From positions 629,501-693,500 of the forward strand of contig OZ014425.1 in the NCBI GenBank assembly GCA_963965975.1: a stretch of DNA of 64,000 nt. The letters are read 5' to 3'. The notes beneath the pieces are model-generated. The model was not told where the DNA came from. It did no database searches and was given only the letters and a program-made list of their open reading frames with translations. This document shows positions 26,843-52,771 of this stretch, piece by piece; the first letter of the stretch is position 1, and every line of letters begins with the position of its first letter. The DNA comes from Xestospongia bergquistia (lineage: Eukaryota; Porifera; Demospongiae; Haplosclerida; Petrosiidae). The position numbers and the translations under genes were made by a program.

Positions 26843-29800
26843 CTATAGACCAAGATGTTTGCGTATCTCATTAGCTTTTGTCTTATTATTAACTGTAGGT
26901 CCTTCAATGACTGAAATTACTGTCTCCCAGATCACAGGAGATGACTGAGTACTTATCCAACACTCAATCACTTTAGAGAGTTTGGTGATATCACTTCCTG
27001 TTTCATTTTTTATGCTTTCCAAATTATTATGACTAACTTTAAAACCTAAGCCAATGTCATACCATTTATTGCTAATATCAGCTAATAGATTAAGTAGGAC
27101 ACCTTTATTAGGGACCTCTTCTAAGATAGCAATGTTTACTTTTGGCTTTTTAGTCACTTCATCTTCAAAGTGATCAGTACTTGAAGTCTCTTCAGTCTTT
27201 CTTTTTGTACCAGCTTCTAAAATTTTGTGGAGATAAAGAAAGAATATATATTTATAATAAAGTACTTTGTTGATAACTTTGACTAGACAGTGCTGATGTT
27301 TGATCATGTGTGCTTTCTATAGAAATGAGACATTGTATGACCTTTATATTATGTGATATGTTAGTGTACTGACTTTCAATAAATTTGCCTAATCCTTCAA
27401 CACAGTCATCCAAATTATAAATAAAAGGTACTGTTGTACGTTCTGACTGAGTAGTACCTTGTACTGTCTATCAAATGAATCAAAATAATTGGTTATGTAT
27501 GATAAAAATTACTTACTTGTCTTCCAAAGACTTTATTCACTAGTGTTGATTTCCCTGAGTTGACAAGTCCTATCACTCCTACTGTAGTATAGCTAGCTAG
27601 ACCCTCTCGAAGCTGATAAATGTTCAATGCCCAAATAAGCCAACGAGCAAGAAGAGGTCGATATGGTTTAGGAACTAAAGCAAGAGCAGTTGCCTCAAAT
27701 CATGTATCCCAATGAACAAGAATATCACCAACTTTTGTATTTGTTGTGATTTCTCGCTCTTTGCATATACCAACAAGTTCTCGTTCCAGAGAGTAACTAA
27801 TATACTGACTGCTACATGTTACTGTTTTGTTCATTCCTTGAAGAAGAAACTGTAATTTAGCATTATAGCTTGTGATTTGTTCTCTAACTCTCTTTTTTGC
27901 AGATTTACTGCTAAGGATACCCTCAATGAATTTAGCTATCTGTATGACTAGTGCTCGATTTCGTTTAGAAGACAATATAGAAGCAATATCCTTTTTATCG
28001 AGAGCAAACAGAGCCCATACTCCTACAGCACCAGAACTATCAGTTTGTAGAGCTTTGGCAGTATCTAGAGGATTGTTAACTAATGGAACTCGGACTTGCT
28101 GTTCCATAAACCCTCCTAACATAGTAACACAGGGAAACAAATGGTTTTTAATTATATCATTTACTTTATCAAGCATATCACAGTTGAGTGTAGCTCTACT
28201 TCCTTGTTTGTGTCTCCTTGAGAGGAAAGCAAGATCTTTTCTAGCATTATGCAAGATTCGTGGCAATGGTATAAATGAATTAACAGCCATAGTAGGAGAT
28301 AATGCTTCAGAAATTGGATATGCTTCACCAATGTTTCGCCCACTGATTAGATTAAGAGACCCTTGGTAAGCTAACATCTCAGCTCTGCGATTCACATCTC
28401 TTGATAAACGATGAAAGTGATGTGCAATTAAATCAGGATCATATTCATGTAGTAATTTCTTTTCAAGAATAGGATTAACTTTAAGTGGAATTGAAGCAAG
28501 AAAGTGACTCTCCTGCATAGATTCTGAGTCAATTTTTTCATTTTGTGATGAAAATAGCCGATGTTTCTGTCTCTTAGAGTATTTTCTTTCCACCATAACT
28601 TCTTCCCAATCTATATGTGATGGGACATTAGAATAATTGATAGACTTTTTTTGGCAGTGTAATGGTAATTTTTGTGGATAGTATTGGTAGCATTCCTCAT
28701 GAAGATCATCATCTGTCATTAAAGATGGATAGCAATGAATGCACTGTCTACGTGCTTCACTGCAGAGACTACGTGCTCCTTCATTGCAACCACTTGCCAT
28801 TAATTTAGATACAGGGAGTGATGATGTATGAGCTATACTTAGGACAGCTTGAGCACACTTATAAGCTGGGACAGTAGTTTTGGGAGAACAACCTCCAATG
28901 GCAAAAACAATGCTTTCCATAGGAACAATACAAGCAGCCTCTTGCAGGAATCTGATGATGAGATTAAAACGTTTGGTCATTCTTCCATCTTGAACAGGAG
29001 ATTGCTCAAGTAAAGCACTAAGAAATGATAACTTAATAATTTCACTTGGAGTTTGCTTAGCAAGCTGACTCTGACGAAATGATATAGGGTCTACTTCCTA
29101 AAATATTGAAAATATCTGTCACTCATGATAAGTATGCTGTAAAATATGGGCTAGTGCTTTTAATTATCGTGTATGATCTTAGTTCTATTAAACCAACTCA
29201 ACAGTGACAAATTCATTATGAGGCTATAAAAATTTGAACATGTTTATAGTAACAAACTTACATTATAAAACATAGGAATTTCTGTGGCTATAGGATCAGT
29301 AAACCTGCTATAAACTTTTACTGGTAAACAATCTGCATCAATTTTCTTGTGAGTGAGTGCTCCATTACGAAAAGATTTGTTATAGCATATCTGCTTTCGA
29401 GCAACACGTTCAGCAGAGATTTCTATTTTAAGGTGTTCATTTTCACATATTGTAATTTCTATGCTGTTACAGAACCACAAATTATCTCCATTAATAACAA
29501 CAGCTAGCTCTTGTCCATCAGGATGTTTGTGTAGATGAAGTTCTATCTTTGAAATTGATGGTTGAAGAGACTTCACACCATTTATAGAGCTCAAAGAGCT
29601 ACGTTGTGGGATCACATAGGGTTCAGGATTTTTTTCAAGGTAGGCTCTTAGTACTTTCAAATGGTACTCATTCATGTCATGCTATAATAATAATAATTTA
29701 AATAATTTTAATCATAATTAACTCACTTGCTGCAAATTAGAAATGTCCATATTTTGAAGCATAGTTGCTGTCAAGTATAATTCTTGTACTTGTAATTTTC

Positions 29801-32065
29801 TACAACAAATCCCATCATTTCTCTGTTCTATTATATGTTTGTTTCCATGGTAAGATACCATTCTTGATAGATGTTTTTTCTGTACGTGCTCTAAAGTAAC
29901 TGTGTTCTGTAATACTGGCTAATAGAATTATAAAGAATCTATTATTCAACAAACCTTTAAGCAACGTTGAAGAACATCTATGTCAATAGAAGAACACAAC
30001 TTCTGAATATAGTCATCTTGTAAGTGAAAAGAGTGAAATGATTCCAAAATATCTGGGAATTGGTGAATAATTTCTTCCAGGTAAGGTAGAGAGTCTGCAC
30101 AAGGAGGTCCAAACATGATACACACTACATTTTGAAGTAGAATATCAGTATTAAAAAATGGTAAACTCCATAGCTTTGCTGTAATGGAGCAAGCTAATAG
30201 ACCTCCAAATGAAAAGCCTAATAAATTTAATATAATAATTTTTACATTTCATTTCATTTTCTACCTGTAAATATCAGTCGCTTGCCTTCATACAATAACT
30301 CACAAAAATACCTTATTGGTACCTTTTTCTCTTCTGCTACACAATGATCTAGGCCTCTTCTTATTAGATCAACATTAAATGATGTGTACACAATATTCCC
30401 TTGTCGTGCTATAAACATCTTATGTTGATCAGATACTGACAGAGACATTTCATCAAATGAGTGTCTATGCAAGTAGTCATCTCTTAGATGAGGTTGTGAG
30501 ACAAATAAAGAACACAGACTAGCATGATAAACTGTATCTTTGGAGAATAGAAGAGGTGGTGGCTCAGATTCAACTGGATCTTCATCAATTGGCTCATCAG
30601 TACAACTGTCATTTTGATCTAATTCCTTAGTAATCTCATCCAGTCTATCATAACACCAATCATTGATATCCATAGGAATAAGTGCATTCATTGTAAGATC
30701 ATTCAACTGTTTTGTTATTCTCTCCTTTAATAGTCCTTCCTCCAATTTCTGACGAATGTGGCTTTCAATATGAGCTCTGATGTGGTTGAGAGTTGCGAGA
30801 CTATCAAAACCAGACCTATTCAGGTCATTGGAATATACTTGAAGTGCACCAGCTAATTGACACAAGTGTGGATCAGAGAAGATGTCATAGGGTTGCTCTG
30901 TGTTTAGAAAACAACATGTGAAAATTGATACTACATAAATCTGTTTACCCACATAATGGGTGTGTGTGTGTGTTGAGGGTTGCTTTAAAACCAACCCAAT
31001 TTAAATCTGGCCTGGCCCACTTTTAAACCATGACAATTCCATCATGTAGAAAATAGTGTTGCATGTGTGCATTTTAGTTATAATTACAGTAATACTTTTT
31101 AGTTTAGTTATTACTTGTTCATAATAAATACAAGTTGTTTTAGTATTAGCTATGAACTAGTACTTTTAGTTATAGCTATTTTAGCTGGCTTGAGGCAGAT
31201 TGCATAAGCTCTAGATACACCCATGATTTAACCTATGCAATCCAAGAGGAGTGGATAGAGTGGTTAGCCATCCCTTGTACATTCTTATCTATCTTATCTG
31301 TTATTATAGCAATGGTTGAAACCATACTCACTCACTGGTTTACATGGCAGTTTCTTGCAGTAAATGGCTGCTAGTTGGCTAGAATATATGGGATAGCTTT
31401 ATGCATTAAAATTATAACTACAACCTACAACAAAATGTTACTTGTGAGCTAAACAGAAAATGATTAATGTTGAAACAAAGGTTTGCATTGTATATTATTG
31501 TTTTGATTTTGCTCTCAAAAGTCAAATTAGTTATTGCGTTGAGGCTGTTTATTTCCTTTAGAAGAGAATTGATCAAAACTAAGCAATTGGCAAAGTTTAA
31601 AAGAGAAATGCACTTCCTATATCTACATATGGTGTACACGTGTAAAGAGGTGATTGTTTACCTTGTGCTTCATTGTCTTCCTTTGTATCTTCAGTAGGTT
31701 TAGCTGTAAAAACATAAATAATATTATTTAATAGCCCCAATTAATATAATACTGAACTCACCATATTCCTCCTCAATTCTTTCTGCCACAAACTTTAAAG
31801 GAGTATACTTCTTAAATACATCTAAAATCTGTTGAAACACTTTGGGATCACGATTTTTGTGAACTTTAATATAAGCTTGAACTGCTTTTAATAAGCAGTC
31901 AACAGAATCTTCATTCTTCTTCACTTTATTTAGTGTTCTCTTATCAATAACTTCAATTGAGCGAAGATCATCAGCAACATCCAAAGGATAAAGTATTGCT
32001 TCTTTAATATCTGGTAGATGCTTGATAAAGAGGGCTACTTCTTTGGCAAAAACACTTTCAGACAT
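26843..32065 (-). pseudogene. Copy A: CARD-like / lipase-like / beta / (GTPase) / DEATH gene, disabled
   Basis: ATG 32065. Exon 1 encodes an about 100-residue six-helix death-fold, CARD-like. A short exon near 31.7 kb and a 700-bp intron follow. Then a lipase class 3-like region (30.90-29.73 kb): KDTVYHASLCSLF, KRLIFTGFSFGGLLACSITA (GxSxG), VCIMFGPPC, FHSFHLQDDYIQKL, and QHDMNEYHLKVL from 29,689. A beta-rich domain (IELHLHKHPDGQELAVVING), a long helical exon (29.10-27.5 kb), P-loop GLVNSGKSTLVNK, and a DEATH domain at the end (IECWISTQSSPVIWETVISV). Two defects: a TGA at 27,700-27,702 where copies B and C have an open codon (CGA in C), and a deletion joining DDCVEGL directly to GKFIESQY, which removes G3 to G5. 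A truncated lipase-only protein could still be made; otherwise a pseudogene. Confidence 0.75.
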
Positions 32066-52700: not shown

Positions 52701-52771
52701 ATTGCTTCTTTAATATCTGGTAGATATTTGATAAAGAGGGCTACTTCTTTGGCAAAAACACACTCAGACAT
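46719..52771 (-). CDS. Copy C: CARD-like / lipase-like / beta / GTPase / DEATH protein
   Basis: The most complete copy. ATG 52771 (MSECVFAKEVALFIKYLPDI). Domains in order: CARD-like death-fold (52.77-52.47 kb); three 33-nt exons; helical region and lipase N-part (51.46-50.83 kb); nucleophile exon from 50,778 with GFSFGGLLACSITAKLW and FHSFHLQDDYIQK; SISYHGNKHIIEQ; HDMNEYHLKVLRAYLEK; beta-rich domain (HLHKHPDGQELAVVINGDNL); a long helical exon (49.66-48.0 kb). Then the GTPase: GLVNSGKST (G1), DFPGVDD (G3), LTCAD at the G4 position, so the usual lysine of NKxD is absent. Last is the DEATH domain (NVSHNNLESL, IECWISTQSSPVTWKTVISV). A short intron (donor gtactt, about 50 bp) is needed before the DEATH exon. 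No signal peptide or membrane helix, so cytosolic. The domain set suggests an oligomerising immune or cell-death effector; this is inference. Confidence 0.8.
52119..52171. repeat. (TA)n microsatellite in copy C intron
   Basis: About 53 bp of pure TA just downstream of the micro-exon array (sense strand). It lies at the place where copy C stops resembling copy A and starts resembling copy B. Confidence 0.97.
52196..52471 (-). repeat. 92-bp tandem repeat (three copies) carrying a 33-nt exon
   Basis: Units start at 52196, 52288 and 52380. Each holds an acceptor (ttctacag), a 33-nt exon (52201-52233, 52293-52325, 52385-52417) and a donor (gtaag). The exon is phase-neutral, so each copy adds 11 residues of the type VKPTEEDNEVQ. 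The lowest-coordinate unit reads VKSTEEYNEVQ. Copies A and B have one such exon each. Confidence 0.9.

Follow-up and report, generated by a model that had tools for sequence, protein, structure and literature searches.

Can a lipase fold, a GTPase and death folds be combined in one animal protein, and what might such a protein do? The question arises from a locus of the sponge Xestospongia bergquistia, which we studied in a window of 64,000 nucleotides (positions 629,501 to 693,500 of contig OZ014425.1, assembly GCA_963965975.1; window positions below count from its first letter). The window lies in contig 15 (5.4 Mb) of the genome that we searched (146 Mb, 21 contigs). Repeat comparison identified three related copies of one gene, all on the minus strand and here named A, B and C. 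Copy C reads as an intact gene for a protein of 1545 amino acids. We propose, at slightly less than an even chance, that the predicted protein is a signalling switch of sponges, uniting a GTPase, a lipase-like domain, and CARD-like and DEATH-like ends in one chain with an immune or cell-death output.

The model of copy C was built by hand from the DNA. It covers 52771-46719 (-) in 13 exons, all 12 introns have GT-AG borders, and a single frame is open throughout. The domain order from N- to C-terminus is CARD-like, helices, class-3 lipase-like, immunoglobulin-like (Ig-like) beta domain, helices, GTPase, and DEATH-like. Exon 1 (52771-52468) encodes the CARD-like part (residues 1-101), assigned by a family profile searched against PDB and by paralogs in the same genome in which CARD exceeds its cut-off. 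Exons 2-4 (52417-52385, 52325-52293, and 52233-52201) are tandem mini-exons of 33 nt, recognised from sequence and splice sites, that encode VKPTEEDNEVQ-type repeats. The mini-exon was found once in each of copies A and B, and its triplication in copy C (52201-52417) includes the flanking intron. Exons 5-7 (51458-50826, 50778-50513, and 50465-50289) carry a helical segment and the lipase-like domain, whose GFSFGG motif starts at the exon 5/6 junction. Exon 8 (50243-49824) holds the region of the candidate catalytic His (QHHDMNEYH) and an Ig-like beta-sandwich with a conserved G.NLWF motif, and exon 9 (49659-47998), in an open stretch of 596 amino acids, a conserved helical region that ends in the P-loop GLVNSGKST. 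The remainder of the GTPase, with the G3 motif DFPGVDD and TCAD at G4, is encoded by exons 10-12 (47947-47763, 47715-47526, and 47469-47142, the last with an alternative end at 47154). Exon 13 (47092-46719) encodes the DEATH-like domain; in PDB, its family profiles match the FADD death domain best. Two GT donors are usable in the last intron, and either one joins exon 13 to the GTPase in frame; a splice model in which the DEATH exon starts at 47192 was dropped because the frame fails. Ratios of nonsynonymous to synonymous substitution rates (dN/dS), from a comparison that left out exon 7 and the mini-exons, ranged from 0.25 to 0.48 over the core exons tested; exon 6, compared between A and C, gave 0.79. 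The DEATH exon has a dN/dS of 0.38-0.57 and no internal stop in any of the three copies.

Is this architecture restricted to one gene? Protein searches returned 29 relatives (numbered P0001 onwards). The eight that carry an organism name are all from sponges (four from Amphimedon, two from Halichondria, one each from Ephydatia and Geodia); the other 21 carry none. These searches were word-seeded, with 4758, 7992, and 7889 candidates scored, so relatives that share few words with the query may be missed, and several known members were unlisted in one of them. Within this scope, no named non-sponge protein came up, and the family may mark a sponge gene innovation. A prokaryotic origin is unsupported, since two patterns scanned against genome contigs gave 58 pattern matches, none of which was confirmed. 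P0003, at 99% identity to P0002, does not count as an independent gene. Five relatives (P0008-P0011 and P0013) are single frames of 1291-1436 amino acids on contigs of 4.2-7.2 kb, which suggests cDNA or intronless genes; the lipase and GTPase parts exceed both cut-offs in all five.

The genome of Xestospongia itself encodes further members: two convergent genes on contig 1 (C1a and C1b, at 2304713-2313499 and 2323071-2329261, with ZU5 exons in our loci L030/L031 and L032) and one on contig 8 (C8). In the contig 1 pair, the GTPase is spliced in frame, through a short linker exon, to a ZU5 domain (23.0 and 21.6 bits, for a cut-off of 21) that occupies the position of copy C's DEATH and is followed by a further tail; against PDB, the ZU5 tail matches that of ZO-1 (E 0.046 and 0.068). 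The contig 8 gene ends after the GTPase; 2.4 kb upstream from the lipase part there is a CARD-like match (C8:6068628; E 3.7e-6, 35% to copy C). Amphimedon LOC109581262 (P0001) carries a DEATH ahead of the CARD-like part and lacks one at the back; this front DEATH is over the Pfam cut-off in Amphimedon and below it in Halichondria. The family thus consists of a constant core (lipase-like domain, Ig-like domain, helices, and GTPase) and of exchangeable terminal adaptors: the front carries a CARD-like domain in many members, or a DEATH, and the back is DEATH-like, ZU5, or absent. A tree of 20 rows, whose only rooting is at the midpoint, places the window copies beside Amphimedon P0001/P0002 (support 98/95), with the contig 8 gene joining them next (100/99); the contig 1 pair falls with Amphimedon P0006 (100/99). 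Both lineages therefore seem to predate the split of Xestospongia and Amphimedon, and the terminal adaptors vary within each.

The GTPase had been named in a preliminary description of the locus, with GLVNSGKST and DFPGVDD as its motifs, and this was confirmed. MMR_HSR1 matches copy C with 39 bits at residues 1165-1276, for a Pfam cut-off of 21.9 (the others are 22 for Lipase_3, 23.9 for CARD, and 22.6 for DEATH), followed by Dynamin_N with 27.2, and it exceeds the cut-off in all 14 relatives scanned. Profile and motifs place the domain among the MMR_HSR1/TRAFAC GTPases. The [NT]KxD form of G4 was not found: the 13 rows in which the motif was located read TCAD, THAD, TYAD, SHAD, TFAD, or TFGD, with the Asp kept and the Lys replaced. 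Roc gave 18.3 bits against the G domain of copy B, under its cut-off of 27, and residues 1020-1094 of P0007 weakly match a URGCP-like GTPase (18.5 bits, cut-off 55) over a segment that takes in the stretch before the P-loop. The residue after DFPG, which corresponds to Gln61 of Ras, is Val, Ile, Leu, or Met in all 14 rows with a G3 motif. A hydrophobic residue there usually marks GTPases that work through dimerisation (the HAS-GTPase rule), and the family's GTPase is thus probably a dimerising one. At E values up to 10, Pfam revealed no NACHT, LRR, COR, kinase, or GBP family in copy C. We accordingly rejected an NLR reading (NACHT and LRR both absent) and a GBP reading (MMR_HSR1 was the best match, then Dynamin_N).

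The preliminary description had also proposed a Lipase_3-type domain, which stands at the level of the family: Lipase_3 exceeds its cut-off in 8 of the 14 relatives scanned, whereas the window copies stay below it (14.4 bits in C, 20.3 in B, and 19.5 in A). P0006 is just under (21.3), P0001-P0003 and the fragments P0012 and P0014 have no match, and the own-genome paralogs score 22.9 (C1b), 18.9 (C1a), and 15.4 bits (C8). Searching all six frames of the entire genome for Lipase_3 gave nine places, the window not among them; the domain is interrupted there by introns. Seven places over the cut-off lie at C1:14897162-15478817 (six with 69.9-81.1 bits, one with 49.1 and stops) and are separate from the lipase-GTPase family. 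Searched against PDB by itself, copy C's lipase segment gave nothing useful. In an AlphaFold2 model of P0003, the lipase part resembles chains of EDS1 complexes and fungal lipases, which is the alpha/beta-hydrolase fold of class 3 lipases. The model has a mean predicted local distance difference test (pLDDT) of 52 and is usable only in parts of 340-810; its DEATH and CARD regions are below 60, and we draw no claim on death folds from it. Foldseek found no match to it at E ≤ 0.001, the lipases coming at 0.023 and weaker. The EDS1-type matches span the lipase part only, and the Ig-like domain comes next.

Would this domain be a working enzyme? If it were an active lipase, opening of the switch would release a lipid signal or damage membranes. 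GFSFGG or GFSLGG and later Asp and His candidates, placed by alignment, occur in copies A-C, so that lipase activity is possible for them; GFSFGG is also present in C1a, C1b, and C8, and in the predicted model of P0003 the serine occupies a turn between strand and helix. Against this, the nucleophile, a Ser in 12 of the 15 aligned rows, is replaced in P0001 (Leu), P0005 (Thr), and P0006 (Glu), and the fold resembles EDS1 complexes, which signal without lipase activity. We regard a catalytic output as quite possible, if not the side to which we lean. In view of the members lacking the serine, at least some of the domain's role would seem to lie in binding or scaffolding, as it does in EDS1; where the triad is present the domain may be a catalytic output, and elsewhere it may bind or scaffold.

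What lies at the two ends of the core? At the front, CARD exceeds its cut-off in both contig 1 paralogs (25.9 bits in C1a and 34.5 in C1b) and stays below it in P0006 (17.0) and P0007 (18.3). A profile of the family's front (A6) has CARD proteins in its first eight PDB rows (E 0.013 to 0.28): CARD8 is best (0.013), and caspase-1 (0.052), cIAP1 (0.066), and BCL10 (0.28) are among the others. The front of P0013 alone gave nothing useful against PDB. At the back, FADD fills the first 11 of 24 PDB rows (best E 1.1e-4) of a profile with relatives (A7) that contains the Pfam-positive Amphimedon domains. In a profile of the three window exons and seven own-genome relatives (A8), FADD takes 11 of the 12 PDB rows (best E 0.023), and Pfam Death is matched by four members out of ten (best 6.1e-4), none of which is copy C. 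The same kind of search with the three window exons only found no death domain. Pfam Death exceeds its cut-off in 2 of the 14 relatives scanned (P0001, 22.7 bits; P0003, 25.2), in both at the N-terminus.

The DEATH exon is highly multiplied in the genome. Scores were computed for 150 out of 1011 candidates, and all 150 match at 1.7e-16 or below; three are the window's own, which gives at least 147 relatives outside it. In a search for Pfam Death, all 150 scored, of 983 genome candidates, exceeded the cut-off. Seven neighbourhoods of such relatives (L038-L044, on contigs 4, 15, 3, 1, and 7) were inspected by eye: we noted ZU5-like parts in L038 and L041, a CARD-like part in L041, where a second DEATH match was computed, and a COR-like part in L043. 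On contig 4, a weak CARD-like match (C4:9514426-9514719, E 0.0023) lies some 50 bp from a DEATH match (9514772-9515050) on the same strand. The exon at the end of copy C could then be just one more copy that happens to lie downstream, with the real protein ending after the GTPase. Beyond the 147 scored relatives elsewhere, the stop before the DEATH exon in copy B, the contig 8 paralog and Amphimedon P0001, which end after the GTPase, and the corresponding end of P0006, which has no Pfam Death match, all favour this. Yet two canonical donors in copy C both splice the exon in frame, it is open in all three copies, with the dN/dS given above, and the last domain of P0006, which we call death-fold-like from the alignment and a CARD_2 match at 0.012, has relatives across the Xestospongia genome. 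We consider a separate DEATH exon rather unlikely.

How might copy C act? When bound to GTP, its GTPase would pair or oligomerise, as the residue at the Gln61 position suggests, and would in this way likely gather the two ends, CARD-like and DEATH-like, into clusters and regulate the lipase-like domain. The death folds would recruit partners (caspases or adaptors) by like-with-like contacts, and the output would be immunity or cell death. Homotypic-interaction domains at both ends of a dimerising switch suggest such GTP-controlled clustering. Several points weigh against this reading. The lipase and GTPase parts occur in non-immune proteins too, P0001 lacks the nucleophile, and P0001 and P0002 have no evident Asp and His. 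The death folds at the two ends, both part of the preliminary description, have their Pfam matches in relatives and not in the window itself: none of the three exons 1 matches Pfam CARD and none of the three DEATH exons matches Pfam Death. The E-values of the front profile (0.013, with two Pfam-positive members included) and of the DEATH profile (0.023) are weak. An AlphaFold2 model of the DEATH exon from the three copies was poor (pLDDT 50.2), and two fold searches with it gave no death-fold match. The core is present in several sponges, and P0006 has its death-fold-like back, but the alignment of the other full-length relatives showed no DEATH at their C-termini, and the C-terminal piece of P0006 gave no Death match, only Glutaredoxin2_C (5.9e-4) and CARD_2, both below the cut-off.

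The core could also belong to a sponge GTPase of lipid handling or membrane trafficking with no immune role, whose death-fold ends would only anchor it to other scaffolds. The similarity of the GTPase covers Era/Der and dynamin types, class-3 lipases are usually metabolic, and in most relatives the core comes without a C-terminal DEATH. We judge this unlikely, given that CARD or DEATH matches, some below the cut-off, stand at the front in Amphimedon, Ephydatia, Halichondria, and Xestospongia, and that the copies show decay and chimerism. Six frames over the zf-TRAF cut-off, with MATH and some with RING, lie in a row at 11250-21975 and adjoin the lipase-GTPase array; the run fits the signalling switch and proves nothing.

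The known switches of animal death-fold signalling are mainly STAND ATPases (NLRs, APAF-1) or GBP-type GTPases. The proteins closest in plan to copy C are two uncharacterised ones of Amphimedon that share its core: LOC109582702 (P0006), with a CARD-like front (17.0 bits, as above), a death-fold-like back, and Glu at the nucleophile, and P0001, with Leu there and the rearranged front described earlier. DAPK/ROCO proteins (GTPase-COR-DEATH) have a C-terminal DEATH domain after the GTPase, as copy C does, but their COR and kinase are unmatched in it. The likeness to plant EDS1-type proteins and NLRs put forward in the preliminary description survives for the lipase part of P0003, which resembles chains of EDS1 complexes (EDS1, PAD4, and SAG101 are plant lipase-like immune proteins), and fails for NLRs in that copy C has neither NACHT nor LRR. 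In the EDS1 family, an EP domain follows the lipase-like domain, where the sponge family has its Ig-like domain. Sponge NLRs are described as CARD- or DEATH-NACHT-LRR proteins in the accessible text of their report (PMC12909245); they resemble our family in carrying CARD or DEATH N-terminal to a nucleotide switch and in their expansion in sponges, whereas copy C has an MMR_HSR1-type GTPase and a lipase-like domain in place of NACHT and LRR. Zebrafish Gbp4, an interferon-gamma-inducible GTPase with a C-terminal CARD (PMC4932187), likewise joins a GTPase and a death fold in one chain. It differs in that the accessible part of its description includes no lipase and in having its CARD at the back, where copy C has a DEATH (ZU5 in paralogs) and carries the CARD at the front; copy C also has no GBP family match.

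We found no paper whose title or opening abstract describes the CARD-lipase-GTPase-DEATH order, in a search that left subscription papers and bioRxiv preprints mostly outside, and none combining the terms Amphimedon, death domain, GTPase, and lipase; words beginning with 'lipase' are absent from the accessible text of PMC8195603. The view that no described protein has this order thus holds within the literature searched, and the preliminary description as a whole is partly confirmed in what it observed and partly supported in its interpretation. One may go further and see in the family a separate class of animal immune switch, in which CARD, DEATH, and ZU5 adaptors are swapped by exon shuffling around a core of lipase and dimerising GTPase, so that an EDS1-like node and an NLR-like switch share one chain. 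We put this forward as a speculative possibility that we would not expect to hold as it stands. If true, it would be another way of building a death-fold switch near the base of animals and a test case for the independent recruitment of lipase folds to immunity in plants and animals.

Finally, how did the three copies come about? The claim that they share one order is true by descent, and the full order is encoded by copy C only; the pseudogenisation suspected at the locus is evident in the other two. Copy A (26843..32065, -) is degenerate, with a TGA in exon 9 (27700-27702) and exon 10 joined to exon 12 near 27390 by an in-frame deletion that takes out the GTPase from before DxPG on (motifs G3 to G5); its DEATH exon is still open. 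Copy B (32309..40912, -) has GFSLGG and a 12-exon model that is open to the end of the GTPase, where a net loss of 1 nt in exon 12 leads to a stop before the DEATH exon. Its exons are 40912-40609, 40558-40514, 39763-39200, 39147-39067, 39020-38734, 35733-35578, 35532-35113, 35069-33579, 33528-33344, 33294-33105, and 33058-32839 and onward, with the DEATH exon at 32682-32309. An additional intron splits its exon 5, and the intron that separates exons 6 and 7 is 3 kb long and holds an insertion of 2 kb in inverted orientation (35972..37969), a 96% copy of 8974-11004, which is a segment of a nearby glutamine-rich gene.

Copy C lies in a duplicated block (44433..56315) whose identity profile is chimeric: the part between 44433 and about 52.1 kb resembles the side of the RecQ gene and copy A, and the part between about 52.4 and 56.2 kb that of copy B (93-100% per 250-nt step). 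This is the pattern expected from crossing over between A and B, and a second haplotype misplaced in tandem would look alike. The array could thus be partly an assembly effect, 44.4-56.3 kb being a second haplotype with one chimeric copy placed behind a first one with A and B. Compared in 250-nt steps, the flanking parts of the block share 91-100% identity with 24.6-26.6 kb and 40.5-44.4 kb, and both outer genes are cut at the junction. We find this explanation doubtful: the window has no N and lies in a contig of 5.4 Mb, and dS between C and A is 0.115-0.163 (exons 5, 6, 8, 9, and 13), although C and B differ by only 0.07 in exon 1. The outer genes, a partial RecQ-like helicase (24560-26630/44433-46500) and one with LDL-receptor repeats (40500-44428/52400-56315), are duplicated at mostly 91-100% identity and cut at 44.43 kb. 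Between copies B and A, the DEATH exon of the former ends 244 bp upstream of the CARD exon of the latter (32065-32309), the same DEATH-CARD order as at the front of Amphimedon P0001.

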